Shown here piece after piece: positions 27,840 through 56,729 of a stretch of DNA of 64,000 nucleotides. The translations under genes and the position numbers were made by a program. The notes below the pieces were generated by a model, which searched no databases, had not been told where the DNA came from, and was given only the letters and a program-made list of their open reading frames with translations. Positions within the stretch are counted from its first letter, which is position 1. Every line of letters begins with the position of its first letter. The DNA is from Planifilum fulgidum (GTDB lineage Bacteria; Bacillota; Bacilli; Thermoactinomycetales; DSM-44946), in NCBI RefSeq assembly GCF_900113175.1, contig NZ_FOOK01000018.1:1-64000 (forward strand), read 5' to 3'.

Positions 27840-27949
27840 CCGAATGACTCCTTTTCCCAATTTTGAATTTTTCATAAATAAAAATAGCGAAGGGGCCCGC
27901 CGGATGCAAGTCCATTGATTGTCGAAAATTCCGGCGCTTTTTCCCCGCG

Positions 27950-34095: not shown

Positions 34096-34171
34096 GGAAT
34101 CTTCCCCTCTCATCGGTGGATTTCGGGAAAATCAGGGTTCATCCGCGAAGATTGAGGGCGTCGGGACCTGC

Positions 34172-35566
34172 TCACCCGTGCGGGTCGCCGGTTACGGCGC
34201 GTTTTTTCTTCAGGAGGTTCCGCTTTCGCATCAGTTCCTGGACGAAGGTCAGGCGGTAGATTTGCCGGGGTCGGCCTTTGGTGGACACTTTCTCCTCCCC
34301 GACGATTTCCACCAGCCGGGCGTCGATCCACTGCAGCAGGATCCGGTGGGCGCTGCGAATCGTGACGCCCAGCACCGCGGCCAGTTCGTGGGCGGTGTAG
34401 TCCGTTTTTCCGTCCCGGGCGATCTGGGCGGCCAACTTGCTCATGTAGATGGCGGACATGCCCGCTTTTTCCGCTTCCCGCAGCAGGGTTTCGTCGGTGA
34501 CGGAGAGTTCGTAAATCATCGGATGGGTCATCTCCACCGGGCCGATGACGCTGCGGTCCTCCCGCACAATAAAGCAGATGTTGCCCCCGAATTCGACGGA
34601 CTGCCGGAGGGCCATCCGGGCGTGGGTCCCCGCGTCCGTGGCCGATCGGCCGAAGCCGATGCCGATGCTCAGGGTGATGCCCAGGGAGCGATGGGTGTCC
34701 TCCAGGAGGGGAAGATACTTATAGCCCCGGGTTTCCCGCTCGAAGACGCCGCGGGTGGTGAAGAAAAGGTATTCTCCTCCCCCCAGGTTGGTCAGATGCC
34801 CGTCCAGGTGTTTCACATAGTCCAGCAGCAGCCGGTGAAGGTCCAACTCCAGCCGCTGAATGTCGTGCTCGTAGGAAAACTGGCCGGCGATCTTCCGGTA
34901 GTTGTCGATCTGGATCAGGCCCACCACGATTTGCGCCTCTTTGTTCCGGCGGGTCTCGGTGGACAGCAGGGCCCTCTCCAAAGCCACGATCAAGTCCTGC
35001 AGAGTGGGAGTGACCCATTCGTGGGGGATGTTCTCCTTTTCCATCTCCTTGGCGACGGCGTGGATGCCGGTCATCGCCGCGCAGTGCGGATGGCTGAGGG
35101 CGTATTTTCGGTGGAAGCGGACAATCTCTTCCACCGGCGCCGTGGGCGGACCTTGGAAATAGGCGGCCTCGCGGTTGTTTTCCCCCAGTTCCCCCAGGAT
35201 TTGCTCCACGTATCGCTTGGGAACGGAATCCACGGAAAGTATTTGGGCGCCGTGCAGGCTCCGGAGCCGGAAGAGGGAGCGGTACAGACCCGTTCCCATC
35301 AGGGGGACGTAGTGGGCGGGCACCTTGAACTGAAGGCGGTCCTGGGCCAGTTTGTACCCCCGGTATTCCGGAAACAGAAGGACTTCGACGGTATCCATCA
35401 GCTCCGACACGGCGTCCGTCAGCTCCTCCTCGGAAGAGAGGGGACGCAGGTGGGGCACGAAGGTGGGAAAGGATTTCAGCGCCTCCTCGGTGCGGTCCAC
35501 CAGCGGTTTGGGTCCGATAACGCCGATGGCGATGACGGAATCTCCGGTGGTGAAGGGTTCGCTCAT
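34172..35566 (-). CDS. One-component regulator: sensor, GGDEF-like core, winged helix
   Basis: 464 residues. An N-terminal alpha/beta domain (about 8-190: AIGVIGPKPLVDRTEEALKS) is followed by a GGDEF-like domain (about 240-365). The latter keeps VGLIQIDNYRKIAGQF, LTNLGGGEYLFFTT and LSIGIGFG, but GGGEY replaces GGDEF, so diguanylate synthesis is unlikely. The C-terminus (about 385-450) is a winged helix: YTAHELAAVLGVTIRSAHRI and RPRQIYRLTF. PucR/CdaR-type regulators share the middle fold but use another HTH. ATG 35566 follows AGGAGGAG. It is first gene of the dppA-transporter operon, divergent from the oxidoreductase. Confidence 0.65.
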   Translation of the reverse strand: MSEPFTTGDSVIAIGVIGPKPLVDRTEEALKSFPTFVPHLRPLSSEEELTDAVSELMDTVEVLLFPEYRGYKLAQDRLQFKVPAHYVPLMGTGLYRSLFRLRSLHGAQILSVDSVPKRYVEQILGELGENNREAAYFQGPPTAPVEEIVRFHRKYALSHPHCAAMTGIHAVAKEMEKENIPHEWVTPTLQDLIVALERALLSTETRRNKEAQIVVGLIQIDNYRKIAGQFSYEHDIQRLELDLHRLLLDYVKHLDGHLTNLGGGEYLFFTTRGVFERETRGYKYLPLLEDTHRSLGITLSIGIGFGRSATDAGTHARMALRQSVEFGGNICFIVREDRSVIGPVEMTHPMIYELSVTDETLLREAEKAGMSAIYMSKLAAQIARDGKTDYTAHELAAVLGVTIRSAHRILLQWIDARLVEIVGEEKVSTKGRPRQIYRLTFVQELMRKRNLLKKKRAVTGDPHG

Positions 35567-35605
35567 GGACTTCTCCTCCTGAAGCCGGGATGGTGATCGA
35601 ATAAA

Positions 35606-35627
35606 AAGACAATTAATCGACTTGTCT
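35606..35627. promoter_or_regulatory. 22-bp operator, copy A
   Basis: AAGACAATTAA-TC-GACTTGTCT, with AGACAA/TTGTCT as inverted half-sites. It differs from copy B (49312-49333) only in the central TC/AA. The last six bases, TTGTCT, serve as the -35 box of the plus-strand promoter. Confidence 0.7.
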
Positions 35628-35651
35628 ATAAAATAAAACATTTCGTATAAT
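35622..35651 (+). promoter_or_regulatory. Promoter of the 35752 oxidoreductase gene
   Basis: TTGTCT (35622-35627), 18-base spacer, TATAAT (35646-35651). A hairpin AATCGT-CAC-ACGATT at 35676-35690 lies in the leader, which is about 95 nt long. Confidence 0.65.
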
Positions 35652-35751: not shown

Positions 35752-36672
35752 ATGACGTTGATCGAAATCGGGATGATCGGTTTGGACACCTCCCATTGCA
35801 CGGCCTTTGCCCGGCTGTTGAATGATCCGGCCGACGAATTTCACGTGCCGGGGGGAAGAGTGACCGTCGCCTATCCCGGCGGTTCCACGGATTTTGAGCT
35901 GAGCCGGTCCCGGGTGGCTGGAATCACCGCGGAGCTGAAGGAACATTACGGCGTCCGCATCGTTTCCTCTCCGGAAGCGGTGGCGGAGCAGTCGGACGCC
36001 ATCCTCCTGACGGCTGTCGACGGGCGCCTTCATCCGGAGCTTTTCCGGCGGATCGCCCCCTATAAGAAGCCGGTTTTCATCGACAAGCCCTTCGCCGTCA
36101 GCTTCCGGGACGCGCGGGAGATGGTCCGCATTGCGGAAAGGCATGGGATTCCCCTGATGAGCGCCTCCGCCCTCCGGTATGCGGAACCCTTGGCGGAGGC
36201 CTTGGAGAGCGTAAAAGAGCCGTACGGCTGCGACTGTTTCGGCCCGATGGCGCTCGAGCCGACCCAGCCCGGGCTCTTTTGGTACGGCATTCACGGTGTG
36301 GAAATGATGTACGCCGCGCTGGGGGCCGGATGCGTGCGGGTGAGGGTCGTCTCCCATCCCCGGCAGGATGTGGTGGTCGGGGAATGGGAGGACGGCCGGA
36401 TCGGGACGTACCGGGGAAACCGGGAGGGAAATTCGGCTTTCGGGGCGCTGATTCACGGCAAAATGGGATCCGTGTTCGCGGATGTGACCCGGAGCCGCAA
36501 ACCCTATTACGCCGCGTTGTTGGAGCAGGTGATGGCGATGTTTCGATCGGGCACGCCGCCTTTGAATGTGGGGGAGACGCTGGAGATCATCCGGTTCATC
36601 GAGGCGGCCAACGAAAGCAGGACCACGGGGAAAGCGGTGGAGTTGGATCTTACGAGGCGTGAGGGGGGATAA
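35752..36672 (+). CDS. Gfo/Idh/MocA-family oxidoreductase (1)
   Basis: 306 residues. The N-terminal Rossmann domain starts IEIGMIGLDTSHCTAFARLL, lacking the classic GxGxxG but matching a known branch with G-L-D-T-S-H. FIDKPFAVSFRDAREMV holds the EKP-like motif (DKP) whose Lys is catalytic in the family. The C-terminal substrate domain is short. These enzymes oxidise or reduce sugars with NAD(P). It is first gene of the long plus-strand series, behind operator A. GGGGGGATG precedes ATG 35752. Confidence 0.82.
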   Translation: MTLIEIGMIGLDTSHCTAFARLLNDPADEFHVPGGRVTVAYPGGSTDFELSRSRVAGITAELKEHYGVRIVSSPEAVAEQSDAILLTAVDGRLHPELFRRIAPYKKPVFIDKPFAVSFRDAREMVRIAERHGIPLMSASALRYAEPLAEALESVKEPYGCDCFGPMALEPTQPGLFWYGIHGVEMMYAALGAGCVRVRVVSHPRQDVVVGEWEDGRIGTYRGNREGNSAFGALIHGKMGSVFADVTRSRKPYYAALLEQVMAMFRSGTPPLNVGETLEIIRFIEAANESRTTGKAVELDLTRREGG

Positions 36673-36674
36673 AC

Positions 36675-38351
36675 GTGAAAATGGCCGATGTGGCGGTCCT
36701 CCTGGACCGGGAAGAGGCGCGGAAGCGGTGGAGCCGGGGGGAAAACGCCTTCGGCGGCGAACTGTTTGAAATCCTGTCCCACGGCGGCATTCCCCATCGC
36801 CGGGTCTTTGATCCGAAGGAGCTCGGCAAGCCGGATGTTCTGCTCGTCGCCTTGGCGGGGCGGGAGGCGGTTCCCCTGTTGAAGGACGTGGCCGAACGGG
36901 GAGGGGAAGTGTTCGTCTTCGGCAGCTTTCCGGAGATGGCCGGCGCGCTGGGGGCGGAGGAGAAGATGATCGAGGGAGCGGGTTATGCATACACGGAGGA
37001 GGAAAATAGGCCTCCTCTCCGCTTTCTTCGCGCCTGCCGCTGGAGGGTTTCTTCTTCGGCTCCCTGTTCCGCGAGGGGGGGATTGTACGGCGGAAATCCC
37101 GACGGACCCTTTCACGGTCCCCTCTTTCACCGGTTTGCGATCGGGTCGGGGGGCATCACCCACTGGGCGGTGGATCTTCCGGGCACGGTGGTGGGGCTTC
37201 AGCAGGGAACCCGTCCGGTGGAAAGGGACGGTTTCCCCGCCCCCGACGGTACGGCGGGGATCGACGACGGCATCCTGAAGGCCGACGACGGGTTCGAGAT
37301 GGACTGGGAGGTGGACCGGGCCCGGACCGAGACCGGCGAGCGGTATTTCGCCCATCCCTATGCGGATCTGTGGAAGGAGACCCTGATCGGTTCGCTGCTG
37401 AAGGCGGCCACCGCCCGGGGGTTGACGCTTCCCTTTGTGGATTACTGGCCCGCCGGCGTGTCACAGGTGGCGATGATTTCCCTGGACAGCGACTGGAATC
37501 TGGATGATTCGGCGGAAACCACCCTGCGGCTGTTGAGGGAGTGCGATGTGGCCGCCACCTGGTGCCTGATCGAGCCGGGATACAGCCCCGGGATCTATCC
37601 CAAGGTGGCCGCGGAGGGGCATGAATTGGCCTTTCACTATAACGCCTACGAGCCGGACGGAGGGGCCTGGGGGCGGGAGGCGTTTTTAAGGCAACTGGAA
37701 TGGCTCAGGCGCGCAATCGGGACGGAGCGGGTGGTTTCCAACAAAAACCATTACACCCGGTATGAAGGGTGGGGGGAACTGTTCCGCTGGTGCGAGGAAT
37801 TCGGCATCCGGTCGGATCAGACCCGGGGTCCGAGCAAAAAGGGGAACATCGGCTTTTTGTTCGGGACGTGCCATCCCTATTTTCCCATCGCCCGGGCAGA
37901 CGAGGAAAACCGGTTCTACGACGTGTTGGAAATCAGTTTCCTCACCCAGGATGTCAATCTTGGCCGCCTGGCGGATGAGAGCGTGATCGTTCCCTTCCTG
38001 GAGGGGGTGCGGCGGGTGCGGGGCGTCGCCCACTTTCTCTTCCATCCCATCCACCTCCACCGGGAAAAGCCGGTCCGGGGGGCGCTGAGAAGGGTGGTCG
38101 AGGAGGCGCGAGGGCGGAATTTCGACTTCTGGACCGGCGAGCAGATCGACGACTGGGAGCGGCGCCGGCGGCGCATCCGGCTGGCGGGGGTGGATGAGGA
38201 GGGAAGACCGCTGGTGTCCGGGTCGGCGGGATGCGAGGACGCGGCGATCATGGTTCCCGTTCCCCGGGGAAGGGAAGAGCGGGGGGGGACGGTCCTCCGC
38301 CACGGAGTCCGGTGCAAAGCATGGTCCCTGTCGCTGGCGAAACGAGTGTGA
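36675..38351 (+). CDS. Polysaccharide-deacetylase-like (NodB fold) protein
   Basis: 558 residues, starting GTG 36675, 2 bp after the previous gene. The N-terminal 105 residues look like a flavodoxin/glutaminase-like fold (PDVLLVALAGREAVPLLKDV). The NodB-type barrel has AMISLDSDWNLDD near residue 268 and GHELAFHYNAYEPDGG near 320, where the metal-binding Asp and His of carbohydrate esterase family 4 would be. It may remove N-acetyl groups from a glycan. About residues 105-140 are oddly Arg-, Ser- and Pro-rich; a frame with FFFGSLFREGG runs beside it, so paired indels around a G7 run are possible. Confidence 0.7.
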   Translation: MKMADVAVLLDREEARKRWSRGENAFGGELFEILSHGGIPHRRVFDPKELGKPDVLLVALAGREAVPLLKDVAERGGEVFVFGSFPEMAGALGAEEKMIEGAGYAYTEEENRPPLRFLRACRWRVSSSAPCSARGGLYGGNPDGPFHGPLFHRFAIGSGGITHWAVDLPGTVVGLQQGTRPVERDGFPAPDGTAGIDDGILKADDGFEMDWEVDRARTETGERYFAHPYADLWKETLIGSLLKAATARGLTLPFVDYWPAGVSQVAMISLDSDWNLDDSAETTLRLLRECDVAATWCLIEPGYSPGIYPKVAAEGHELAFHYNAYEPDGGAWGREAFLRQLEWLRRAIGTERVVSNKNHYTRYEGWGELFRWCEEFGIRSDQTRGPSKKGNIGFLFGTCHPYFPIARADEENRFYDVLEISFLTQDVNLGRLADESVIVPFLEGVRRVRGVAHFLFHPIHLHREKPVRGALRRVVEEARGRNFDFWTGEQIDDWERRRRRIRLAGVDEEGRPLVSGSAGCEDAAIMVPVPRGREERGGTVLRHGVRCKAWSLSLAKRV

Positions 38352-38389
38352 GGCATTGTTGATCAAGGCGCTTGAAGGAGGGGAAGCAG

Positions 38390-39628
38390 GTGCGGGAAGA
38401 GGAGCTGGCCATCCACGGCGGGCCGAGGGTGAAGACGGACGCCTTCGGGACGGGCAAACGCTTCGGCGCGGAGGAGGCGAAAGAGCTGCTGGAGGCCTTG
38501 GAACAAAACACGCTGTTTTACCACTCCGGGACGAAGGTGAAGACCTTTCTGCGGCGCTTTAACGAACTGTACGGCGTCCGGTACAGCGTGGCCGTTTCCT
38601 CCGGAACGGCGGCGATCCACGTCGCCCTGGGGGCGGCGGGAGTGACGGTGGGGGACGAGGTGATCACCAGTCCGATCACCGATCAGGGGACGTTGATCGG
38701 CATTTTGTACCAGAATGCGATTCCGGTGTTCGCCGACCTGGATCCCCGCACCTACAATCTGGATCCGGCATCGGTGGAGGAGAGGATCACCCCCCGGACC
38801 AAGGCCATCCTGGTCGTCCATCTGGCGGGCACTCCCGCCGACATGGACGGGATCATGGAGGTCGCCCGAAAGCATCGCCTCAAGGTGATCGAGGATTGCG
38901 CCCAGAGCTGGCTGACCCGCCACCGGGGCAAACTGGCGGGCACCTTCGGCGACTACGGGTGTTTCAGCACCAACGATTTCAAGCATATCAGCACCGGGGA
39001 CGGGGGAATCGTCACCGTCAATTCCGGGGATGAAGAGGATTTTCAGCGGGTGCACGCTTTTGCCGACAAGAATTACCGGCGCTTTTCGGATGAGGTGATG
39101 CGGGATCCGGAGTGCCTGGCCCCCAATTACCGGATGACGGAGCTTCAGGGGGCCGTCGGCATCGCCCAGCTGAAAAAGTTGTCCTGGATCTGCGGAAGGC
39201 GCCATGCCTACGGCGAGCGGATCACCGAGGGCATCCGGGATTTGCCGGGCGTCCTTCCGCCGAAGGTGCCCGAAGGCGGCTGGTCTTCCTACTGGTTTTA
39301 CATGTTCCGGGTGGATGAGTCCCGGCTGTCCTGCACGCGGGATCAGTTTGCCCTCGCCCTCCGGGGGGAGGGTATTCCCGCAAGTCCCGGTTACATTCCC
39401 CACGTGCTGTACCGGCAAAAGATGTTTCGGGAGCGGCGGGCCTATCCCGGCAGCGATTTTCCTTTCTCCCTGTCGGACGTCTCCTATGAACCGGGACTCT
39501 GCCCCGTCGCCGAGCGGATTTTGGCGACGTCGATCCGCCTTCCCGTCAGCGAATTTTTTACGGAAAAGGACATCGACGACATGATCCGGGCGATCCGGAA
39601 AGTGGCGCGGTATTACGCCAAGGGGTGA
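38390..39628 (+). CDS. DegT/DnrJ/EryC1 sugar aminotransferase
   Basis: 412 residues, PLP-dependent. The Schiff-base Lys is in STNDFKHISTGDGGIVTV near residue 197; VSSGTAAIHVALGAAGV and IEDCAQSW are the phosphate and pyridine contacts. The family transaminates keto-sugars, usually on the way to amino-deoxy sugars. In this degradative island it may run with the Gfo/Idh oxidoreductases to remove or exchange an amino group (inference). GTG 38390 follows GGAGGGGAAG; an upstream TTG is unlikely. Confidence 0.9.
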   Translation: MREEELAIHGGPRVKTDAFGTGKRFGAEEAKELLEALEQNTLFYHSGTKVKTFLRRFNELYGVRYSVAVSSGTAAIHVALGAAGVTVGDEVITSPITDQGTLIGILYQNAIPVFADLDPRTYNLDPASVEERITPRTKAILVVHLAGTPADMDGIMEVARKHRLKVIEDCAQSWLTRHRGKLAGTFGDYGCFSTNDFKHISTGDGGIVTVNSGDEEDFQRVHAFADKNYRRFSDEVMRDPECLAPNYRMTELQGAVGIAQLKKLSWICGRRHAYGERITEGIRDLPGVLPPKVPEGGWSSYWFYMFRVDESRLSCTRDQFALALRGEGIPASPGYIPHVLYRQKMFRERRAYPGSDFPFSLSDVSYEPGLCPVAERILATSIRLPVSEFFTEKDIDDMIRAIRKVARYYAKG

Positions 39629-39900
39629 CGGCGGGGTTTTTCCGCCGGATTGCGGGACGCGGACTCGGCATGGTCTGCCGGAGGGAAGGCGGTACGGGTC
39701 TTCATGTCCGTCACGCCCGCACCTCACCGCAACCGGTGGCGCTTTTTCATGACGTTGGCGGCTTTGGGATCCGCATCTTTCGGAAAAATCTCGCGACGCG
39801 GGGGCGGGGAAGGACGGCCCCGTCCGGATTTTGGAGGATGCTAGTTTGACGGGAGTGAGCCTCGATGACGGCCGTTATCAGCGGGCGGGAGGAAGAGAGC

Positions 39901-41796
39901 ATGAGGCTGCGGTTTCAGGGAGATCTGTCCGGCCTGGAGGCCGGATTGAAGGAGCTGGAAGCCGATCTTTCCTTTGTCCGGGATGGAAGGGGATTTCCCG
40001 TGGAAGTGGAGCGGATACCGGAAAGTCTGCTCCAGGTTGAGGTGGGGAAGGAGCGGGGGCGGATCCGGTTCCGGGAGCCCGTCCATTTCTACCGCGGGCT
40101 CGGCATCCTGATCGGTGCCCTCCGGGACGGAAAGACGGAGGCCGTGACGGAAAAGCCCCGGTTTGCGATGAACGGGGCCATGTTCGATTGTTCCCGGAAC
40201 GCCGTGTTCCGGCCCGAGGTTCTGCGGCGGGTGATCCGGATCATGGCGTTGATGGGGCTCAACATGCTCATGCTGTACACGGAAGACACTTACACCGTGG
40301 AAGGGGAGCCCTACTTCGGATACATGCGCGGCCGCTATACGCCGGAGGAACTGAAGGAGCTGGACGAGTACGCCGCCCTTTTCGGCATCGAAATGATTCC
40401 CTGCATTCAAACCCTGGCCCACTTGGCCGCCTTTCTGAAGTGGGAGCCGGCGCGAAAGTACCGGGACACCGAGGACGTGCTCCTGGCCGGATCCGAGGAC
40501 ACCTACCGGCTGATCGAAGGAATGATCCGCTCCGTCTCCGGAACGTTCCGGAGCCGGCGCATCCACATCGGGATGGATGAGGCATTCGGCTTGGGAAGGG
40601 GGAGGTATCTGGACCGCTTCGGTTACCGGCCTCCCTTCGAGATCATGATGGATCATCTTGGGAAGGTGCTGGACATCACCTCCCGGTACGGGCTGAGGCC
40701 CATGATGTGGAGCGACATGTTTTTCCGGATGGGCTCTCCCGGCCACGAGTATTACGATTTGAGCGCGGAGATTCCCGGCGAGGCGGTCCGCCGGATGCCC
40801 GAGGGCATCCGGCTGGTGTACTGGGATTATTATCACGAAGATCCCGCCTTCTATGAGCAATTCATCGAAAAACACCGCTTACTGGGATCCGATCCCGTTT
40901 TCGCGGGAGGAGTGTGGACCTGGGCGGGGCCGGCGGTCCATTACGAGAAAACCTTCGCCGCCACCAACGCGGCCCTTTCCGCCTGCAAGCGGAAGGGGAT
41001 CCGGGAGGTGTTCGCCACCTTCTGGGGGGATGACGGGGCGGAGACCAACATGTTGGCCGGCCTGCTGGGACTGCAGCTGTTCGCCGAACACGGCTACGCG
41101 GAACAGCCGGATCCGGAAACCCTGAAACGGCGCTTTGCCCTCTGCACCGGAGGCGATGCCGACGCTTTCCTCAACATGGGGAGATTCGACACCCTTCCCG
41201 GGGCGGACATGGGGGCGCTGATTCCCGATAACCCCTCCAAATTCCTGTTGTGGCAGGATGTGTTGATCGGCCTGTTCGACAAGCACCTGGAGGGGGCGGG
41301 TGCCGCGGAATATTACGATCGGCTGCACCGCCTTCTGAAGGCCGACCGGGACCGGGCCGGAAGGTGGCGGGAGCTCTTTGAGGTTCCCGTCCGGTTGAGC
41401 GCCGTACTGCGCATGAAATGCGACATCGGCCTGAGGATCAAGGCGCATTACGATCGCGGGGAAAAGGACAGGCTGGAGGCCGTCGCCCGGGAAGAACTGC
41501 CGAAATTGCACCGGGAGATCGACCGGTTGCGGAAGGCGCACCGAAAACAGTGGTTCAGCACCTACAAACCCTTTGGCTGGGAGGTGCTGGACATCCGATA
41601 CGGAGGGCTGCTTGCCCGGGTGGAGACGGCGATGGAACGCCTCCTGGACTATTGCTCCGGAAGGATTTCCCGCATCGAGGAGCTGGAGGAAGAGCGGCTG
41701 GGATTCGACGGATTCCGCCCCGGACGGGACCCGGGCGTCGGCAAGGCCAATCTGTATTCCCGGATCGCTTCGGCCTGCGTCATGGGCTTCCGCTGA
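39901..41796 (+). CDS. GH20-type beta-N-acetylhexosaminidase
   Basis: 631 residues, no signal peptide, so it acts in the cytoplasm on imported oligosaccharides. A small N-terminal domain leads to a TIM barrel with LMGLNMLMLYTEDTYTVEGE and RIHIGMDEAFGLGRG near residue 225; the Asp-Glu pair is the catalytic pair of GH20, where the neighbouring acetamido group assists. The Trp-rich strand (FAGGVWTWAG, FATFWGDDGAE) lines the pocket. A helical C-terminal domain follows. ATG 39901 is behind GGGAGGAAG; ATG 39865 would add 12 residues. Confidence 0.82.
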   Translation: MRLRFQGDLSGLEAGLKELEADLSFVRDGRGFPVEVERIPESLLQVEVGKERGRIRFREPVHFYRGLGILIGALRDGKTEAVTEKPRFAMNGAMFDCSRNAVFRPEVLRRVIRIMALMGLNMLMLYTEDTYTVEGEPYFGYMRGRYTPEELKELDEYAALFGIEMIPCIQTLAHLAAFLKWEPARKYRDTEDVLLAGSEDTYRLIEGMIRSVSGTFRSRRIHIGMDEAFGLGRGRYLDRFGYRPPFEIMMDHLGKVLDITSRYGLRPMMWSDMFFRMGSPGHEYYDLSAEIPGEAVRRMPEGIRLVYWDYYHEDPAFYEQFIEKHRLLGSDPVFAGGVWTWAGPAVHYEKTFAATNAALSACKRKGIREVFATFWGDDGAETNMLAGLLGLQLFAEHGYAEQPDPETLKRRFALCTGGDADAFLNMGRFDTLPGADMGALIPDNPSKFLLWQDVLIGLFDKHLEGAGAAEYYDRLHRLLKADRDRAGRWRELFEVPVRLSAVLRMKCDIGLRIKAHYDRGEKDRLEAVAREELPKLHREIDRLRKAHRKQWFSTYKPFGWEVLDIRYGGLLARVETAMERLLDYCSGRISRIEELEEERLGFDGFRPGRDPGVGKANLYSRIASACVMGFR

Positions 41797-45236: not shown

Positions 45237-45325
45237 ACGGGACATTCTTTGTTTCCGGTGTGGATCTTTGCAGGTATCGGCCGCGGGCAAGTCTTTTGGT
45301 CAGGATGAATCGGGGGGTGGGACCG

Positions 45326-46300: not shown

Positions 46301-46360
46301 GGATGGGGACTTGCTTCTTATTTGGGTGGTGGCGAGGAAACGAAAGAGGGGGATTAGGCG

Positions 46361-47926
46361 ATGCGGGGAAGGAAGACGATGCTCGCTCTGGCGTGCGTCC
46401 TGGTCTTGACGGGGGGAGTTTTGGCCTGTTCATCCCCCGAAGCGGAGCGGGGAGATTCCGGAGACAAAAAATACACCATCACATCCTTCGATTTTCTCTT
46501 TACGGACATTCCCCCCAAGGACGGCCGGGGGTTGAAGATGATCAACGAACGGTTCAATGTCGATTACCGGAGAGAGTACGCAGTGGTTACGGAATATAAC
46601 GAAAAGCTGACCGCCCGCGTCGCTGCGGGGGACATCCCCGATGTGATCGGTTTCAGCATGGAGGAAGACCGGGGCAATTACGTCAAATGGGCGAAACAGG
46701 GAGCGTTTTTGCCCTTGAACGAGTACATCGACGACTATCCCACCCTGAAAATGGTGCCGAAGGAGGTGTGGAACGCCGTCACGGTCGACGGAAAGATCTA
46801 CGCGATCCCCAAGTATTATCCCAAAAAATATCAGATCACGCCGATCATCCGCAAGGATTGGCTGGATAAACTGGGCCTGAAGATGCCCACCAATTTCGAA
46901 GAGTTGAAAGAGGTGGCCATCGCCTTCGCCAAACGGGACCCGGACGGAAACGGCAGGGACGACACCTACGGACTGGCATTCGGGGAAAAGAACTTGATCA
47001 ATTTTTATCACTTCGGCACCTATTGGGACGCCGATGCCTGGTACCACAAAAACGAGAAGGGACAGTACATCCCGGGAATCATCAGCGACGCCCGGAAAGA
47101 GTGGATCCGGGTGATGGCCGAACTGTACAAGGCCGGAGCGATTCAGAAGGATTTCGTTCTGCTGAGTCACAATGAAGCCAACACCAAGGTTTTTTACGCG
47201 GGGAAGGCGGGGATATTCTTCGGTGCCCCGCGGGGGATGGCGGATGATTACATGAAGGCCCTGAAAAAGATCCATCCCGGGGTGGAGCTGGCCCCGATCC
47301 CCCCTTTCAGGGCGCCCGACGGCTCCAGGGGATACACGGCGGGTTCCGGCTTCTACACCGCCTCCGCCCTCTCCGCCAAACTGGCCGATGACCCGGGCAA
47401 GGTGCGCCGGATCCTGGAGATCATCGACTTCGGCCGCAAATTTTATCCTCCGGAGCAGCAAAACCCGAAAAACAAGGATTTTGATTGGCTGTACGGAAAC
47501 GAGGGAACGGGATACCAAATGGTGGACGGAGCGCCGACCTTGCCCGAGGGGAAAAAGGGGCTGGCCCCCTGGAACTACATGATCGACAGAAGCATGTGGG
47601 CTCCCAGCGATGAAGCCAATCAATACCACCGGACGTACAAGACGAAGGAGTACCGGAAGCTGGCGAAGGAACTGGAAGAGATGCACGCGCGCATCCCACA
47701 CTACGACAATCCCATCCACCAGGTGTATTCCGAAACCTTCATTGAAAAAGGGCAGGAAATCACGCTCAAACTGCTGAACGAACAGGCCCGCATCATCACG
47801 GGCGACCGCCCCCTGTCCGACTGGGATCGGCTGGTTCAGGAGTATTTGGAGGCGGGCGGAGCACAGATCATCGAAGAAGTGAACCGCGAGATCAGGAAAA
47901 ACAACATCCGGCCCGGTTGGAAATGA
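46361..47926 (+). CDS. LplA-like extracellular sugar-binding lipoprotein (1)
   Basis: 521 residues. Signal peptide with lipobox VLAC (about residue 23), then KKYTITSFDFLFTDIPPKDG. The solute-binding fold follows, with NERFNVDYRREY, DKLGLKMPTNFEELKEVAIA and a long C-terminal helical part. Proteins of this size and type (LplA, YtcQ) work with LplB/LplC permeases and bind larger or branched oligosaccharides. Near-identical in large parts to the gene at 49461. A ribosome site AGAGGGGGAT precedes ATG 46361. Confidence 0.9.
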   Translation: MRGRKTMLALACVLVLTGGVLACSSPEAERGDSGDKKYTITSFDFLFTDIPPKDGRGLKMINERFNVDYRREYAVVTEYNEKLTARVAAGDIPDVIGFSMEEDRGNYVKWAKQGAFLPLNEYIDDYPTLKMVPKEVWNAVTVDGKIYAIPKYYPKKYQITPIIRKDWLDKLGLKMPTNFEELKEVAIAFAKRDPDGNGRDDTYGLAFGEKNLINFYHFGTYWDADAWYHKNEKGQYIPGIISDARKEWIRVMAELYKAGAIQKDFVLLSHNEANTKVFYAGKAGIFFGAPRGMADDYMKALKKIHPGVELAPIPPFRAPDGSRGYTAGSGFYTASALSAKLADDPGKVRRILEIIDFGRKFYPPEQQNPKNKDFDWLYGNEGTGYQMVDGAPTLPEGKKGLAPWNYMIDRSMWAPSDEANQYHRTYKTKEYRKLAKELEEMHARIPHYDNPIHQVYSETFIEKGQEITLKLLNEQARIITGDRPLSDWDRLVQEYLEAGGAQIIEEVNREIRKNNIRPGWK

Positions 47927-48027: not shown

Positions 48028-49290
48028 ATGGCAAGTCCGGAAAAGAAGCCGCTGGTCGAAGAGGCAAGAGGGGAGAGGACGTCGGGGTTTATCCGCTGGT
48101 TTGGATCCCTGGGGCCGGCGGTCATTACCGCCGCGCTGGTGCTGGGTCCCGGAAGCCTGACGGTGTCCACCAAACTGGGTGCCATGTACGGATATCAGGT
48201 GCTGTGGATTGTCGTCTTGGCGACGCTTTTCATGATGGTTTTCACCGAGATGGGCGCGCGGATCGGGATGGCTTCCGATTCATCCCTCCTCACCCTCGTC
48301 CGGCGGAAGTGGGGATCGCCGGCGGCGGTTCTCATCGGGGCGGGTTCGTTTCTGATCACCTCTTCCTTTCAGGCCGGCAATGCGATGGGGACGGGAATCG
48401 CCTTCGGAACGCTGACCGGAATCCCCGCCCCCCTCTGGACGCTTCTTTTCACGTTCTTGGCGATCGCTTCGCTGTTTCTGAAAAACTTCTATCGGTTTCT
48501 GGAAAAGGCGATGTTGTGCCTGGTCGGTCTCATGCTCGCCTCCTTCCTCTTCACCCTGCTGACGGTGAGGCCGGATCCGGCGGCGGTGGCGGGCGCCCTC
48601 ATCCCCCGCGTTCCGGAAGGGTCCTTCGCGCTGATCACCGCTTCCTTGGCCACGACGTTTTCCATCGTCGGCGCCTTTTACCAGTCCTATTTGGTTCAGG
48701 AAAGGGGATGGGGCCGGGAGAACGTCAAGGAAGGGGTGCGGGAAAGTTACTCGGGAATCTTCTGTCTGGGCCTGATCTCCGCCATGGTGATGGTTTGCGC
48801 CGCGGCCGTCTTGCTTCCCCAGGGCATTCGGGTGAACTCCGTCGTCGAAATGGGCAAAACGCTGGAACCCCTTTACGGAGGCACCGCCACCGCCGTTTTC
48901 ACCCTCGGCCTGTGGGGAGCCGCCTTCTCTTCCCTGATGGGGAATGCGGCGATCGGAGGCGCCTTGCTGGCCGATGCCCTGGGATGGGGTTCCCGCTTTC
49001 ACGGGATGCGGGTGAAAGGATTGGTGGTGGCGGTCATGCTGATCGGCGCCGCCGTCGCTCTGGCCTTCGGAAATGCACCCCTGGAACTGATCGTGACGGC
49101 CCAGCTGATCACCGTCGTGATCGTTCCCCTGATCGGAACGGCGATGTTCCGGATTGCCGGCGACCGGACCCTCATGGGGGATCTTGCGATTTCGGCCGTC
49201 AAGAAGCGAATCGGCGGGGTGGGTCTTTTCGTCCTTTATTTTCTGTCTCTATACACCCTGGGAAATTTGATCCGCGATCTGTTCGGCTGA
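48028..49290 (+). CDS. Atypical Nramp-family membrane protein
   Basis: 420 residues, eleven or so membrane segments. The first segments read SLGPAVITAALVLGPGSLTV and STKLGAMYGYQVLWIVVLAT, the Nramp fold, but the metal-binding DPGN of helix 1 is GPGS and the MPH of helix 6 is replaced (TTFSIVGAFYQSYLVQE). The canonical Mn/Fe ligands are therefore missing and the substrate is unlikely to be a usual divalent metal ion. It sits between two sugar-binding lipoproteins, so a role tied to the glycan is possible. GGAGGTGGA precedes ATG 48028. Confidence 0.82.
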   Translation: MASPEKKPLVEEARGERTSGFIRWFGSLGPAVITAALVLGPGSLTVSTKLGAMYGYQVLWIVVLATLFMMVFTEMGARIGMASDSSLLTLVRRKWGSPAAVLIGAGSFLITSSFQAGNAMGTGIAFGTLTGIPAPLWTLLFTFLAIASLFLKNFYRFLEKAMLCLVGLMLASFLFTLLTVRPDPAAVAGALIPRVPEGSFALITASLATTFSIVGAFYQSYLVQERGWGRENVKEGVRESYSGIFCLGLISAMVMVCAAAVLLPQGIRVNSVVEMGKTLEPLYGGTATAVFTLGLWGAAFSSLMGNAAIGGALLADALGWGSRFHGMRVKGLVVAVMLIGAAVALAFGNAPLELIVTAQLITVVIVPLIGTAMFRIAGDRTLMGDLAISAVKKRIGGVGLFVLYFLSLYTLGNLIRDLFG

Positions 49291-49311
49291 CGCCGCCTCG
49301 GGAATCAATTT

Positions 49312-49333
49312 AAGACAATTAAAAGACTTGTCT
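49312..49333. promoter_or_regulatory. 22-bp operator, copy B
   Basis: AAGACAATTAA-AA-GACTTGTCT, identical to copy A at 35606-35627 outside the two central bases. TTGTCT at its right end overlaps the -35 box. Confidence 0.7.
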
Positions 49334-49358
49334 TGATATCCTCGTCCCCACTTATAAT
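49328..49358 (+). promoter_or_regulatory. Promoter of the second LplA-like gene
   Basis: TTGTCT (49328-49333), 19-base spacer, TATAAT (49353-49358), with the same design as at 35622-35651. The leader is about 95 nt. Confidence 0.6.
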
Positions 49359-49460: not shown

Positions 49461-51023
49461 ATGCGGAGGTTTCGCCGGTGGATCGCTTGGATGTGTGTGT
49501 TGGCGCTGACGGGGTCCCTTCTGGCGTGTTCGTCCCGGGACGCGGAAGACGCGGATTCCAAAGACAAAAAGTACACCATCACCTCCATCGATTTTCTGTA
49601 TACGGACATCCCTCCCAAGGACGGCCGGGGCGTGAAGATGATCAACGAGCGGTTCAACGTGGATTACCGGCGGGAGTACGTGGTTTACACCGAGTACGTC
49701 CAGAAGCTGACCGCCCGGGTGGCCTCCGGGGACATTCCCGACGTGATCGGTTTCGAGGGGAGCATCGACCGGACCAACTTTTTCAAGTGGGCGAAGCAGG
49801 GAGCGTTTCTCCCCCTGAACGATTACATCGATGATTATCCCACCCTGAAGATGGTGCCGAAGGAGGTGTGGAACGCCGTTTCCGTCGACGGAAAGATTTA
49901 TGCCATTCCCAAATACTATCCCCAAAATTATCTGCTCACGCCGATCATCCGCAAGGATTGGTTGGACAAACTGGGCCTGAAGATGCCCACCAATTACGAG
50001 GAACTGAAGGAAGTGGCCATCGCTTTCGCCACCAAGGATCCGGACGGAAACGGCAAGGATGACACCTACGGCCTGGTGTTCGGGGAAAAGCTTTGGCCGA
50101 ATTATCATTTCGGCACCTACTGGGACGCCGATGCCTGGTACCACAAAAACGAGAAGGGGCAGTACATCCCGGGGATCATCAGCGACGCCCGAAAAGAGTG
50201 GATCCAATTGATGGCCGAGCTGTACAAGGCCGGTGCGATTCAGAAGGATTTCGTCCTCCTCAATCCCAATGAGGCCAACACCCGCGTGTTTTACGCGGGG
50301 AAGGCGGGGATCATGGTGGGAGCCCCCCGGGGGATGTCGGACGATTACATGAAGGCTCTGAAAAAGATCCATCCCGACGCGGAATTGGCCGCCATTCCCC
50401 CCTTTGAAGCCCCTGACGGCTCCCGGGGTTACACGGCGGGGTCGGGCTATTACACCATGACCGCCCTGTCCGCCAAGCTGGCCGATGATCCGGGCAAGGT
50501 GCGCCGCATATTGGAGATCATCGACTTCGGCCGCAAGTTTTACCCCCCCGATCAGCAGAAGCCGGAAAACAAGGATTTTGACTGGCTTTACGGCAATGAG
50601 GGAACCGGGTACCAGATCGTGGACGGGGTTGCGACACCCCCCGACGGGAAAAAGGGGCTGGCTCCCTTCAACTATCTGATCGACAACAAGATGTGGGCGC
50701 CCAGCGACGAGGCCAACCAATACCACCGGACATACAAGACAAAGGAGTACCGGAAGCTGGCCAAGGAACTGGAGGAGATGCATGCCGGCATCAAGCACTA
50801 TCAAAATCCGATCCATCAGGTGTACTCCAAAACCTTCGTCGAAAAGGGGCAGGAGATCACCGAGAAATTGCTGAATGAACAGGCCCGGATGATCACCGGC
50901 GATTTGCCCCTTTCCGAATGGGACCGGCTGGTGAAGGAATATCTGGATTCCGGCGGAGCGCAGATTATCGAGGAAGTGAACCGGGAGATTCAGAAGAACA
51001 ACATTCAGTCCGGCTGGAAATGA
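49461..51023 (+). CDS. LplA-like extracellular sugar-binding lipoprotein (2)
   Basis: 520 residues, a close copy of the protein at 46361: same signal peptide layout (lipobox LLAC), the same KKYTITSIDFLYTDIPPKDG start of the mature part and long identical blocks (AGAIQKDFVLL, GTYWDADAWYHKNEKGQYIP). Differences cluster at the N-terminus and a few loops, so the ligand may be similar but not the same. It has its own promoter and operator, unlike the first copy. GGAGGGAGGAG precedes ATG 49461. Confidence 0.9.
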   Translation: MRRFRRWIAWMCVLALTGSLLACSSRDAEDADSKDKKYTITSIDFLYTDIPPKDGRGVKMINERFNVDYRREYVVYTEYVQKLTARVASGDIPDVIGFEGSIDRTNFFKWAKQGAFLPLNDYIDDYPTLKMVPKEVWNAVSVDGKIYAIPKYYPQNYLLTPIIRKDWLDKLGLKMPTNYEELKEVAIAFATKDPDGNGKDDTYGLVFGEKLWPNYHFGTYWDADAWYHKNEKGQYIPGIISDARKEWIQLMAELYKAGAIQKDFVLLNPNEANTRVFYAGKAGIMVGAPRGMSDDYMKALKKIHPDAELAAIPPFEAPDGSRGYTAGSGYYTMTALSAKLADDPGKVRRILEIIDFGRKFYPPDQQKPENKDFDWLYGNEGTGYQIVDGVATPPDGKKGLAPFNYLIDNKMWAPSDEANQYHRTYKTKEYRKLAKELEEMHAGIKHYQNPIHQVYSKTFVEKGQEITEKLLNEQARMITGDLPLSEWDRLVKEYLDSGGAQIIEEVNREIQKNNIQSGWK

Positions 51024-51211: not shown

Positions 51212-52228
51212 ATGGAAAGTCTTGAAGAGTTGGAACGAATCCTGACGGAACCCTCGGACCGGCTGGTTCGCGACGTGTCCCGGCTGGACGGGGATCTGAT
51301 CATTCTGGGCGTCGGGGGGAAAATGGGTCCCGGACTGGCAAAATTGGCCAAGAAGGCCTTTGAACGGGCCGGGCTGAAGCACAGGGTGATCGGCGTGTCC
51401 CGCTTTTCGGACCAAGGGGTTCGCGAGGAACTGGAGCGAAGCGGGGTGGAGACGATTTCCGCCGATCTCCTGGAAGAGGATCAACTGCAGGCCCTGCCCG
51501 ACGCCAAATATGTGATTCACATGGTCGGTCGGAAGTTCGGCACCAAAGGCAAGGAACACCTGACCTGGGCGTTGAACGCTTATCTTCCGGGAAGGGTGGC
51601 CCTGAAGTACCGGAATGCCCGGATCGTTTCCTTTTCCACCGGAAACGTGTACCCCCTCGTGAAACTGGCGCAGGGGGGCGCGACGGAGGAGGACCCGCCC
51701 CGGCCGACCGGCGAGTATGCCCAGTCCTGCCTGGGCCGGGAGCGGGTATTCGAATACTTTTCCCGGAAGTACGGGATTCCGATGTTGCATTTTCGCCTCA
51801 ATTACGCCATCGAAATGCGTTACGGGGTGCTTTTGGAAATCGCCCAGGCGGTGCGGCAGAGGCAGCCCATCGACCTCCGCATGGGCCAGGTCAACGTGAT
51901 CTGGCAGGGAGACGCCAGCGAAATGGCCATCCGTTCCCTTCTGCACTGCCAGTCGCCGCCCAAGATTCTGAACGTGACGGGACCGGAAAGCATTCCGGTC
52001 CGATGGCTGGCCCGGGAATTCGGCCGCCGGTTCAAGGTGGAGCCGATTTTTGAAAATGAAGAGGAGGACAGCGCCCTCCTGAGCAACGCGTCGGAAGCCC
52101 ATCGGCTGTTCGGCTATCCCCGGGTGTCCCTCCGGCAGATGATCGAGTGGACGGTGAAGTGGCTTGAGACCGGGGGCGTCATCTACAATAAGCCGACGCA
52201 TTTTCAGGAACGGGAGGGAGAGTTTTGA
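51212..52228 (+). CDS. NAD-dependent epimerase/dehydratase (extended SDR)
   Basis: 338 residues. The cofactor loop is IILGVGGKMGPGLAKLAKKA. VSFSTGNVYPL carries the active-site Ser/Thr region, but the usual YxxxK is YAQSC, so the catalytic Lys seems to be missing and the activity is uncertain. The C-terminal domain matches sugar epimerases (LNVTGPESIPVRWLAREFGR). It is followed immediately by the aldolase gene, 1 bp apart, and probably modifies the imported sugar. GAGAGGAGAGG precedes ATG 51212. Confidence 0.82.
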   Translation: MESLEELERILTEPSDRLVRDVSRLDGDLIILGVGGKMGPGLAKLAKKAFERAGLKHRVIGVSRFSDQGVREELERSGVETISADLLEEDQLQALPDAKYVIHMVGRKFGTKGKEHLTWALNAYLPGRVALKYRNARIVSFSTGNVYPLVKLAQGGATEEDPPRPTGEYAQSCLGRERVFEYFSRKYGIPMLHFRLNYAIEMRYGVLLEIAQAVRQRQPIDLRMGQVNVIWQGDASEMAIRSLLHCQSPPKILNVTGPESIPVRWLAREFGRRFKVEPIFENEEEDSALLSNASEAHRLFGYPRVSLRQMIEWTVKWLETGGVIYNKPTHFQEREGEF

Positions 52229-52229
52229 G

Positions 52230-53297
52230 ATGGCGAACGAGCCCTTGTCCCCAAGGCTAAGGGAAGCGTTGCGCGACGGCCTGGTGATTCCCGCCCATCC
52301 CCTGGCCCTGAACGCCTCCAGGCGCCTGGATGAGCGGAGACAGCGGGCGTTGACCCGTTATTATGTCGAAAGCGGCGCCGGAGGGGTGGCGGTGGGGGTT
52401 CACACCACCCAGTTCGCCATCCGCAAACCGGGAATCGACCTGCTGGAACCGGTGCTCCGCCTGGCGGCGGAAGAGGTGGAGCGGATGAATCCGGATCGCC
52501 CCGTTTTGCTGGTGGCGGGGATCTGCGGGGAGACGGAGCAGGCTCTCCGGGAAGCGGAATTGGCCCGGAAGCTGGGCTATCACCTGGGGCTGCTCAGCCC
52601 CGGGGGGCTCGGTCATCTCAGCGAGGAGGCCCTTCTCGAGCGGGCCGAGCGGGTGGCCGAAGTGATCCCCCTGTTCGGCTTTTACCTGCAGCCGGCCGTC
52701 GGCGGGCGGGAACTCTCCTTCGATTTTTGGCGGGCGTTTGCGGAGATCCCCGGGGTGGAGGCGATCAAGATCGCCCCCTTTGACCGGTACCGGACGGTGG
52801 ATGTGGTCCGGGCGGTGTGCCACTCGTCCCGCCGGGACGAAGTCGCCCTGTACACCGGCAACGATGACAACATCCTGGCGGATCTGTTGACCCCGTTTCG
52901 CTTCCACATCGGCGGAAAGATCGTGGAAAAGCGGATTGTCGGCGGACTTTTGGGACAGTGGGCGGTCTGGACCCGGAAGGCGGTGGAGCTTTTGGAACAG
53001 GTGAAGCGGGTTCGGAATCAAAACGCGATTCCGCCCGAATTGCTCGCCCTGGGGAGCCGGCTGACCGATGCCAATGCCGCTTTGTTCGATGCGGCCCATC
53101 GTTTCCGCGGCTGCATTCCGGGGATTCACGAGGTGCTCCGCCGCCAGGGGCTTCTGGAGGGGCGATGGTGCCTCGATCCGGAGGAGGAGTTGTCACCGGG
53201 CCAGATGGAGGAAATCGACCGGGTGTGTCGGGCGTATCCGGATCTTGCCGACGATGCCTTCGTGCGCCAAAATCTGCGGCGCTGGCTGGAGGTGTGA
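52230..53297 (+). CDS. DapA/NanA-family aldolase
   Basis: 355 residues, a class I TIM-barrel lyase. The Schiff-base Lys lies in VEAIKIAPFDRYRTVDVV (about residue 180) and the hydroxyl-bearing Tyr in GFYLQPAVGG. Dihydrodipicolinate synthase itself is about 290 residues; the longer C-terminus here favours a sugar-acid (keto-deoxy acid) aldolase or dehydratase. With the lyase and oxidoreductases it would make pyruvate-containing fragments. ATG 52230 follows GGGAGGGAGAG. Confidence 0.82.
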   Translation: MANEPLSPRLREALRDGLVIPAHPLALNASRRLDERRQRALTRYYVESGAGGVAVGVHTTQFAIRKPGIDLLEPVLRLAAEEVERMNPDRPVLLVAGICGETEQALREAELARKLGYHLGLLSPGGLGHLSEEALLERAERVAEVIPLFGFYLQPAVGGRELSFDFWRAFAEIPGVEAIKIAPFDRYRTVDVVRAVCHSSRRDEVALYTGNDDNILADLLTPFRFHIGGKIVEKRIVGGLLGQWAVWTRKAVELLEQVKRVRNQNAIPPELLALGSRLTDANAALFDAAHRFRGCIPGIHEVLRRQGLLEGRWCLDPEEELSPGQMEEIDRVCRAYPDLADDAFVRQNLRRWLEV

Positions 53298-53974: not shown

Positions 53975-54865
53975 GTGGAAGTGGCTCTGGGGGTGGATAT
54001 CGGAGGAACGAAAGTGGCCGCCGGTCTGGTCAGCGCCGCCGGGGAATGCCTGCATTACGCGGAACTGCCCAGCGCTTCCGAAGACGGCGACGAGATGTTT
54101 CGGCAGGTGATGAGGGCCATCCGGGAAGTGATGTCGGAGGCGGGGGTGTCGCCCGCCGGCATCCGCGGGATCGGCGTCGGCGTTCCGGGAAAAGTGGACC
54201 GGGAGAAGGGGGTGGCGGTCATGCAGAACAATCTCCCCTGGCGCCATTTCCCCTTGGCGGATCGGATCCGGGAGGAGATCCCCGTCCCGGTGGTGCTGGA
54301 CAACGATGTGTGCATGGCCGCCCACGGGGAGTGGATGAAACGGGGGGGATCGGTGGAGGAGACCTTCGTCTATTTCACGATCAGCACCGGGATCGCCTGC
54401 TGCACCATTCATCGCGGGCGGATTCTCCGGGGAGCGGGTTTTTCCGGAGAAATCGGCCTGGCGGTTTTTTCCGGGGAGGGGGGCCGGCTGGAGAAGAAGG
54501 CGGCGGGTCCGGCGATCGGAAGGCTTGCGGGCGGGAAAGGACCGGAAGCTTCCAGGCGGGCGATGCGCCGCTTCCGGGAGGGCGATCCCCGGATGGTTGC
54601 GGCGATGGACGGGGTGATCGAAGCGTGGGCCCGGGGATTGTACGCGATTATCTGCCTGTTGGATCCCCACCGGCTGGTGCTGGGGGGAGGAGTGATCCAC
54701 CGCAATCCGTTCCTGCTGGATGAAATCCGCCGGCGCTTGGAATCCTTGGTCATCCCCGAACAGCGTCCGTCGCTTGAGCGGTTGTCCCTCACGACCCTGG
54801 GGGAGAGGGCGGGATGCATCGGGGCCGGTCTGCGGGTGCTGCGGGGAGAAACCGTTTCGTCCTGA
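53975..54865 (+). CDS. ROK-family sugar kinase, zinc motif missing
   Basis: 296 residues. GVDIGGTKVAAGLVSAAGEC is the ATP/phosphate loop and VVLDNDVCMAAHGEWMKRGG the catalytic Asp region. The ROK zinc signature (GEIGH...CxCGxxGCxE) is replaced by GEIGLAVFSGEGGRLEKK, so His and all Cys ligands are absent. It may still phosphorylate a hexose or N-acetylhexosamine, but structure must be stabilised otherwise. GTG start with GAGGGGGG upstream, 13 bp after the YesL-like gene. Confidence 0.85.
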   Translation: MEVALGVDIGGTKVAAGLVSAAGECLHYAELPSASEDGDEMFRQVMRAIREVMSEAGVSPAGIRGIGVGVPGKVDREKGVAVMQNNLPWRHFPLADRIREEIPVPVVLDNDVCMAAHGEWMKRGGSVEETFVYFTISTGIACCTIHRGRILRGAGFSGEIGLAVFSGEGGRLEKKAAGPAIGRLAGGKGPEASRRAMRRFREGDPRMVAAMDGVIEAWARGLYAIICLLDPHRLVLGGGVIHRNPFLLDEIRRRLESLVIPEQRPSLERLSLTTLGERAGCIGAGLRVLRGETVSS

Positions 54866-54877
54866 GGGGGTGGAGGC

Positions 54878-55840
54878 ATGGAAATCCGGAAACCAACCGG
54901 GACGGGCCCCGAAATCGGCAGGAGGGTCAAGGCGGTCAAGCGGCGCAGGACCCGTCCCCTTTACCGTCACTGGCATCTCTACCTGCTGATTTTGCCGGGG
55001 CTTCTCTATTTTCTCGTCTACAGGTACCTCCCCATGTTCGGGTTGGTGATGGCCTTCCAGGATTTCAGCCCCTTTTTGGGCTTTTTCGACAGCCCCTGGG
55101 TCGGTCTCAAGCATTTTAGGACGATGTTCGAGGATGAAGAGGCGCTCCGGGTGATCTGGAACACCCTGGAGATTTCCCTGCTCCAGATTTTGTTCGCCTT
55201 TCCGCTGCCCATCATCCTGGCCCTGATGATCAACGAGCTGCGCAATGCGGTGTACAAGCGGCTCATCCAGTCCATGGTCTATCTGCCCCACTTCCTGTCT
55301 TGGGTGGTGGTGGTGGGGATTTTCGTCGTCTTCCTCAAATCGGACGGCATTGTGAACCAGCTTCTGCAAGCGCTGGGGATCGGCCAGATTCCCTTTCTCA
55401 CCAGCCCGGAATGGTTCAAGCCCCTCATCGTGTTCCAGGTGATTTGGAAGGAGTCGGGGTGGGGAACCATCATCATCCTGGCCGCCCTGGCGGGGGTCAA
55501 TCCCCAACTGTACGAGGCGGCGGTGATCGACGGCGCCAACCGCTGGCAGCAGATGTGGCACATCACCCTGCCCGCCATTCGCAGCACCATCGTCATTTTG
55601 CTGATCCTGCGGCTCGGCTCGGTGATGGATACCGGTTTTGAGCAGATTTTCCTGATGCTGAACCCCTTTACGATGGAAGTGGGGAACGTTTTGGACACCT
55701 ATGTTTATTTCAAAGGGATTCAGCAGGGGGATATCAGCTTTGCAACGGCGGTGGGATTGTTCAAAGGGGCGGTCGGCCTGATCCTGGTGGTGATCGCCAA
55801 CCGCCTGGCGAAGCGGTTCGGTGAAGGGGGAATCTACTGA
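54878..55840 (+). CDS. LplB-type carbohydrate ABC permease
   Basis: 320 residues, six membrane segments. The N-terminus has a long charged tail (RRVKAVKRRRTRPLYRHWHL). The EAA loop reads LYEAAVIDGANRWQQMWHIT. This type imports oligosaccharides together with LplC and an LplA lipoprotein. 12 bp after the ROK gene. It overlaps no gene and is 13 bp before lplC. Confidence 0.93.
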   Translation: MEIRKPTGTGPEIGRRVKAVKRRRTRPLYRHWHLYLLILPGLLYFLVYRYLPMFGLVMAFQDFSPFLGFFDSPWVGLKHFRTMFEDEEALRVIWNTLEISLLQILFAFPLPIILALMINELRNAVYKRLIQSMVYLPHFLSWVVVVGIFVVFLKSDGIVNQLLQALGIGQIPFLTSPEWFKPLIVFQVIWKESGWGTIIILAALAGVNPQLYEAAVIDGANRWQQMWHITLPAIRSTIVILLILRLGSVMDTGFEQIFLMLNPFTMEVGNVLDTYVYFKGIQQGDISFATAVGLFKGAVGLILVVIANRLAKRFGEGGIY

Positions 55841-55853
55841 AGGAGGGAAGGGC

Positions 55854-56729
55854 GTGAGGTATCGAAGCACCGCCGGAAAAATCGCGGATGCCATAAACGC
55901 CTTTGTGCTGTTGCTGATCGCGCTGTCGATGCTGTTTCCCTTTGTCTACATTTTCGCCGTATCCTTTTCCAGCCTGGAGGAGGTGCTTCAGAACGAACTG
56001 CTGCTCTGGCCCAAGGAATGGGTGACCGACGCCTACCGGTACATCCTTTCCTCCGAGCAGTTCATCCGGTCCTTTTTTGTCACGGTGTTCGTCACCGTGG
56101 TCGGAACCTTTGTCAACATGGCCTTCACCACCACCATGGCTTACGGCTTGTCCCGGCCGGTGCCCGGACAAAAGCCGCTCCTGTTCATGGTGGTATTCAC
56201 CTTGCTGTTCAGCGCGGGGATGATCCCCACCTACATGGTGGTCCGGGCGACGGGGCTGATCGACAGCCTGTGGGCCCTGATTCTCCCGGCGGCCATCAAT
56301 CCCTTCAATCTGATCGTCATGCGCCAATTCTTCCTCAACATACCGGAGGAGCTGCACGAAGCGGCCATCATCGACGGGGCGAACCACCTGCAGATTTTCT
56401 GGCGGATCATCCTGCCCCTGTCCAAACCGGCCCTGGCCGCCATCAGCCTGTTTTACGCCGTGGTCCATTGGAACAACTATTTTGCGGCGATTCTGTACAT
56501 CAACGATCCCGCCAAGTGGCCCCTGCAGGTGGTTCTTCGGCAAATCGTCATCGTCAATGAACCGAATGCGGCGCTCCGGGGCGGACAGCAGATGATCGAA
56601 AATCCGCCTCCTCCCGAAACGGTGCAGATGGCGGCGATCCTGCTCGCCACCCTGCCGATTCTGTTCGTTTATCCCTTCTTGCAGAGGTATTTTGTCAAGG
56701 GAGTCATGCTGGGTTCGGTGAAGGAATGA
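55854..56729 (+). CDS. LplC/YtcP-type carbohydrate ABC permease
   Basis: 291 residues, six membrane segments; EAA loop ELHEAAIIDGANHLQIFWRI. GTG 55854 follows AAGGAGGGAAG. It is the last gene of the island. As with the other pair, no ATP-binding protein is encoded in the window, so the ATPase must come from elsewhere (MsmX type, inference). Confidence 0.93.
   Translation: MRYRSTAGKIADAINAFVLLLIALSMLFPFVYIFAVSFSSLEEVLQNELLLWPKEWVTDAYRYILSSEQFIRSFFVTVFVTVVGTFVNMAFTTTMAYGLSRPVPGQKPLLFMVVFTLLFSAGMIPTYMVVRATGLIDSLWALILPAAINPFNLIVMRQFFLNIPEELHEAAIIDGANHLQIFWRIILPLSKPALAAISLFYAVVHWNNYFAAILYINDPAKWPLQVVLRQIVIVNEPNAALRGGQQMIENPPPPETVQMAAILLATLPILFVYPFLQRYFVKGVMLGSVKE

Follow-up and report, generated by a model that had tools for sequence, protein, structure and literature searches.

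The 64,000-nucleotide stretch of Planifilum fulgidum DNA analysed here (the window) contains a glycan island, whose genes, predicted operators, and promoters are listed in Table 1. The probable regulator gene, called REG below, starts 34 bp from operator 1. The name of the deacetylase-like protein is our own reading; Pfam gave no match. The gene order from the Gfo gene through the genes at 36675..39628 is kept in G001, G009, G010, and G011, and both ABC permeases of the distal part are conserved in the neighbourhoods compared.

Several other genes lie in or next to the island. The region 44241-47926 encodes two Gfo/Idh/MocA oxidoreductases and a second LplA-like solute-binding protein, a paralogue of the product of the 49461 gene. 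This paralogous gene has no box, and the same genes are missing between the same neighbours in the congener G001. An Nramp-family transporter is encoded at 48028-49290, inside the island. Such a transporter is found beside Epim-DHDPS-REG again at L091, L092, L094, L103, L104, and L108, and at L092 it is directly behind the box. Behind REG on the minus strand (31839-34113), and possibly on one transcript with it, are genes for an M55 D-aminopeptidase and for a solute-binding protein of the sugar type.

Table 1. Genes, predicted operators, and promoters of the glycan island (positions in the window)
Feature	Position	Strand	Remarks
REG, probable regulator	34172..35566	-	divergent from the gene at 35752
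Operator 1 (predicted), 33 bp	35601..35633	+	half-sites TAAAAAGAC / TTAATCGAC / inverted TTTATAGAC; holds box 35606-35627
Promoter overlapping operator 1	35622..35651	+	-35 TTGTCT, 18-base spacer, -10 TATAAT
Gfo/Idh/MocA oxidoreductase (Gfo)	35752..36672	+	first gene after operator 1; preceded by the box in 9 named loci too
Deacetylase-like protein and DegT/DnrJ/EryC1 aminotransferase	36675..39628	+	downstream of the Gfo gene
GH20C-type glycoside hydrolase	39865..41796	+	farther downstream of operator 1
Operator 2 (predicted), 33 bp	49307..49339	+	half-sites ATTTAAGAC / TTAAAAGAC / inverted TATCAAGAC; holds box 49312-49333
Promoter overlapping operator 2	49328..49358	+	-35 TTGTCT, 19-base spacer, -10 TATAAT
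Extracellular solute-binding lipoprotein (SBP_bac_8)	49461..51023	+	first gene behind operator 2
Epim, NAD-dependent epimerase/dehydratase-like	51212..52228	+	commonest box-led gene elsewhere (61/81 sites)
DHDPS-superfamily aldolase-like protein	52224..53297	+	adjoins Epim at almost every orthologous locus
ROK sugar kinase and two ABC permeases	53975..56729	+	distal genes of the operator-2 operon

The initial annotation placed a 22-bp operator at two promoters of plus-strand island genes, and its coordinates, strand, and count of identical positions proved right. The two copies, AAGACAATTAATCGACTTGTCT (35606-35627) and AAGACAATTAAAAGACTTGTCT (49312-49333), are both on the plus strand, share 20 of 22 positions, and differ at 2. 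They lie at the promoters of the Gfo gene (35752) and the solute-binding gene (49461). When the whole 3.38-Mb genome was searched for AAGACAATTAAnnGACTTGTCT with up to 3 mismatches, these two island promoters were the only matches, with no even spread over the genome, and dinucleotide-shuffled windows gave zero matches at the same tolerance. A PWM from which the two sites of the window had been left out gave scores of 36.7 for 35601-35633 and 41.1 for 49307-49339 (33 bp each), while the maximum in 30 shuffles was 6.1. Two chance matches, or a promoter sequence duplicated without any regulator, might also leave such a pair of sites, and the two paralogous solute-binding protein genes show that local duplication has taken place within the island. 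However, the sequences flanking the two boxes are unrelated and therefore speak against any recent promoter duplication, the scores are far above those of the shuffles, and the cross-family conservation described below already refutes this explanation, which we regard as having practically no chance of being correct.

Two other patterns were tried and rejected. The plain palindrome AGACAA-N9-TTGTCT with 2 mismatches had 69 matches in the genome versus 66 for the reversed control, and therefore the outer arms carry no specificity at this tolerance. A third site before the heparinase-like gene of the window (27898-27930, minus strand) had a PWM score of -3.1, which is background; unlike the window, Melghirimyces has a site before its heparinase-like gene.

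The consensus of 64 non-redundant sites is about 33 bp long, ATTTAAAGACAATTwAAAGAyTTGTCTTTaAAT. It contains three TTTAAAGAC half-sites with an 11-bp pitch, two direct and one inverted, at relative positions -3 (+), 8 (+), and 19 (-). Their mean matches were 7.9, 7.3, and 7.3 of 9, respectively, and no other register exceeded 5.5. The 11-bp pitch would put all three half-sites on one face of the helix. Thus, the repeat in the initial annotation stands but its length does not: given the 33-bp scores above, the predicted operator has three half-sites, spans about 33 bp, and is not a simple 22-bp palindrome. The annotation also took the right half-site TTGTCT as a -35 element followed by TATAAT, and this is what is seen at both sites. 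The promoter scanner scored the operator-1 promoter 10/12; it takes spacers of 16-18 only, and the operator-2 promoter with its spacer of 19 is outside its range. A -10-like hexamer was present 17-18 bp past TTGTCT in 53 of the 64 non-redundant sites. Judged from this spacing, the inverted pair would be centred at about -35.5 and the upstream half-site would lie at about -52, if the -10 element is set 18 bp from TTGTCT.

The initial annotation held that a single regulator binds both sites and proposed the 34172 gene, REG, and comparative genomics strongly supports this claim. The congener G001 has exactly two box matches, and they are at the same two promoters, in the REG-Gfo intergenic region (operator 1, 1 mismatch) and before the solute-binding protein gene (operator 2, with the 22-bp core identical). 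G001 has neither the oxidoreductases of the 44-48 kb region nor the first solute-binding gene; the second solute-binding gene keeps its box. Operator 1 is also conserved at the same REG-Gfo junction in Melghirimyces/Marinithermofilum. REG orthologues (57-100% identity) were found in 11 of 42 genomes of the window's order, and a degenerate box with 1 mismatch was found in 12 genomes. Ten of these 12 are exactly the ten genomes with a near-complete orthologue, and the remaining two have differing sequences and no REG orthologue. Within the order, the box is before the Gfo gene, the solute-binding gene, the heparinase-like gene (G010 and G011), or the Epim-DHDPS-REG operon (G017, G018, G027, and G026). 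No such site was found near the REG paralogues (24-29% identity).

With a cut-off of E at most 1e-60, REG orthologues were present in 27 of 400 Bacilli genomes. The exact sequence AGACNNTTWANNGAYTTGTCT was present in 17 of the 400, comprising 15 of the 27 genomes with REG versus 2 of the 373 without it (Fisher p = 3.5e-18, which overstates independence because the genomes share ancestry); the reversed pattern had 1 match in the same 400 genomes. The two exact boxes in genomes without REG were set aside. One is inside an apparent mutL-type frame (G272), and the other is in a genome without any REG-type match at E 1e-10, where the 9 kb around the box held no homologue of the window genes (G110). 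The spread over many families helps against the problem of ancestry, and so does a comparison among genomes with Epim. Epim homologues were found in 41 of the 400 genomes, and sites were scored with a PWM from Paenibacillus-type named loci only, counting those above 18 bits. Among these Epim(-DHDPS) genomes, the box was present in 22 of 26 with REG versus 0 of 15 without it (p = 6e-8), and therefore the box follows the regulator and not the enzymes. For the REG orthologues of G081 and G311 (59-61% identity), the surrounding 17 kb contained no box that could be recognised.

In a Paenibacillus-type clade (L229, L233, L235, and L237), the operator upstream of Epim is a variant that is one base longer, for example TTTTAAGGACGATTTAAAGACGTTGTCTTATAA. 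This clade was scored as lacking REG, and it has diverged REG homologues (31-33% identity) about 10 kb from Epim (G321, G384, and G400). A one-base-longer operator together with a diverged homologue suggests that operator and regulator co-diverged, a pattern noticed after the fact.

REG is predicted to bind the operators because of this co-occurrence, which could also arise if the box belonged to another regulator, encoded elsewhere and co-occurring with the pathway. However, the box was missing from every Epim-DHDPS genome without a REG orthologue at the cut-off used, and REG is the conserved DNA-binding gene beside the box, which in many cases separates REG from the neighbouring gene, divergent or downstream. 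A different regulator is therefore improbable, and it is highly probable that the two boxes are operators for REG as a one-component regulator.

A scan of the contigs of named genomes gave 80 REG loci (Melghirimyces, Marinithermofilum, Fictibacillus, Pseudalkalibacillus, Paenibacillus, Cohnella, and others). With a leave-one-locus-out PWM, 72 of the 80 carry a site, and there are 81 sites in 1.01 Mb. The Epim gene is behind 61 of them (median distance to its start 59 bp), the Gfo gene behind 9, and REG itself behind 2. The other 9 are elsewhere, and those inspected precede a heparinase-like gene, genes of secreted glycosidase-like proteins, a serine-dehydratase-like pair, or a gene that is followed by an enolase-superfamily gene and a Gfo gene. 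Four of the eight loci without a site are on contigs that end before the expected place; at L135, L162, L171, and L185 no box was found and the contig is intact at the relevant place. The box is restricted to one coherent gene set, at promoters. The motif upstream of orthologous genes was thus found in other genera and families, and the predicted regulon spans several Bacilli families and is not a local peculiarity.

The operon order in Paenibacillus is Epim, DHDPS-like, SDH beta, SDH alpha, (REG), Gfo. The serine-dehydratase-like alpha/beta pair is box-led in Paenibacillus and Salibacterium (L137:2992-4659, L151:9517-11081, and L144:7334 onwards), which hints at a hydroxy amino acid as a product of the pathway. 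In G026 (L193:6906-8033) the box at about 6780 leads the gene of an enolase-superfamily (MR_MLE) protein, and in Cytobacillus (L115, minus strand below 10514) an enolase-superfamily protein is also encoded behind the box. Since such genes are box-led, the regulon probably includes an epimerase or an acid-sugar dehydratase.

The only Pfam match above the cut-off in REG is the GGDEF_GdpP domain (PF24898, 32.1 bits versus a cut-off of 30). This middle domain was matched by PF24898 in 27 of 27 family members and by PF05165, the GTP cyclohydrolase III family, in 25. The family consensus keeps the GGDEY motif, which reads GGGEY in the window's REG. An AlphaFold2 model from 27 sequences had a mean pLDDT of 79.6 and a pTM of 0.47, and since the overall model is moderate, only domain-level matches were used. 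PrpR, the activator of propionate catabolism, is an NtrC-type sigma-54 activator. Roughly the N-terminal 200 residues of REG match the PrpR-N sensor structure 2pju (Foldseek E 3.9e-6, TM 0.79 on target), a match of fold only with 12-13% identity. Unlike PrpR, REG ends in a winged HTH and is associated with sigma-A-type promoters, and no Pfam match to the AAA+ sigma-54 activation domain was found in REG or its 26 relatives. The middle of the model matches the folds of GGDEF domains, as in GdpP, and of GTP cyclohydrolase III. In contrast to GdpP, the GGDEF-like domain of REG is embedded in a predicted DNA-binding protein that has no phosphodiesterase domain match. The C-terminus is modelled as a wing-bearing HTH, which matches HTH_Crp_2 weakly in 20 of the 27 members (16.7 bits for the window's REG, below the family cut-off of 27). 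Unlike Crp-type regulators, the REG family showed no cNMP-binding-like N-terminal beta-roll in Pfam scans or model fold matches, and TTTAAAGAC is not a CRP/FNR half-site (TGTGA / TTGAT). REG is thus predicted to combine a PrpR-N-like sensor, a GGDEF/GTP-cyclohydrolase-III-like domain, and a C-terminal Crp-like winged helix.

REG relatives on plasmid records are "hypothetical protein" or have no listed gene. In open-licence PMC papers, a scope in which absence is no proof, we found no description of REG or of a PrpR/GGDEF architecture, nor of the box (GACTTGTCT, AAAGACAA), in agreement with the initial annotation, which knew of no regulator with this box. The sole match to TTTAAAGAC as an operator was a cloning primer (PMC9104551) and is irrelevant.

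In the proposed mechanism, when no inducer from the glycan pathway is present, REG, probably as dimers, would bind the three half-sites. Because the centre of the promoter-proximal inverted pair (TTwAAAGAy-TT-GTCTTTaAA) falls on the -35 element, REG binding there would exclude sigma-A and shut both island operons. REG would then be released by a catabolite in the PrpR-N-like domain, possibly with a nucleotide bound to the GGDEF-like domain as well. Given the genes for transport, hydrolases, and catabolism in the regulon, an intermediate of the glycan pathway presumably serves as the inducer.

REG might instead bind the same box as an activator. RNA polymerase would then be recruited through the direct half-sites in tandem near -52 and -41, in place of the -35 contact. 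Pho box operators, bound by PhoB, are 11-bp direct repeats that overlap the -35 region. The two upstream half-sites of the REG operator are likewise direct repeats with an 11-bp pitch, the upstream one is closest to the consensus (7.86/9), and the -35 TTGTCT matches its consensus at only 4 of 6 positions. An operator over the -35 element also fits a PhoB- or class-II-type activator. However, the REG operator differs from the Pho box in sequence and in its third, inverted half-site, which extends downstream into the -35/-10 spacer, and REG is not a response regulator. Moreover, the -10 elements of the box-led promoters (TATAAT/TATGAT) match mostly at 5-6 of 6 positions with a spacing of 17-18, and therefore these promoters look self-sufficient. 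Activation is possible but rather unlikely. Since the palindromic pair covers the -35 element and enters the spacer, and the promoters look complete unaided, we suggest that REG probably represses rather than activates.

New regulator-operator pairs are a familiar type of finding; the REG family itself is apparently undescribed, and its domain make-up is unusual. A more far-reaching reading, which we hold only tentatively, is that REG founds an undescribed family in which a PrpR-like sensor, a nucleotide domain, and a winged HTH on a three-half-site operator gate a Bacilli glycan pathway by catabolite and nucleotide. This raises the question of whether the GGDEF-like domain senses a nucleotide within a DNA-binding protein. 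For a "hypothetical" regulator family there are now a predicted operator with its consensus half-site and a regulon that extends over dozens of Paenibacillus, Cohnella, Fictibacillus, Melghirimyces, and relatives. The site and the REG gene travel together in dozens of soil and heat-loving Bacilli, which makes an easily tested circuit. A widespread sugar-catabolic set (Epim, DHDPS-like, Gfo, serine-dehydratase-like, enolase-superfamily, GH20C, and heparinase-like) thereby becomes accessible, and knowing what induces the promoter should show which substrate this set acts on.
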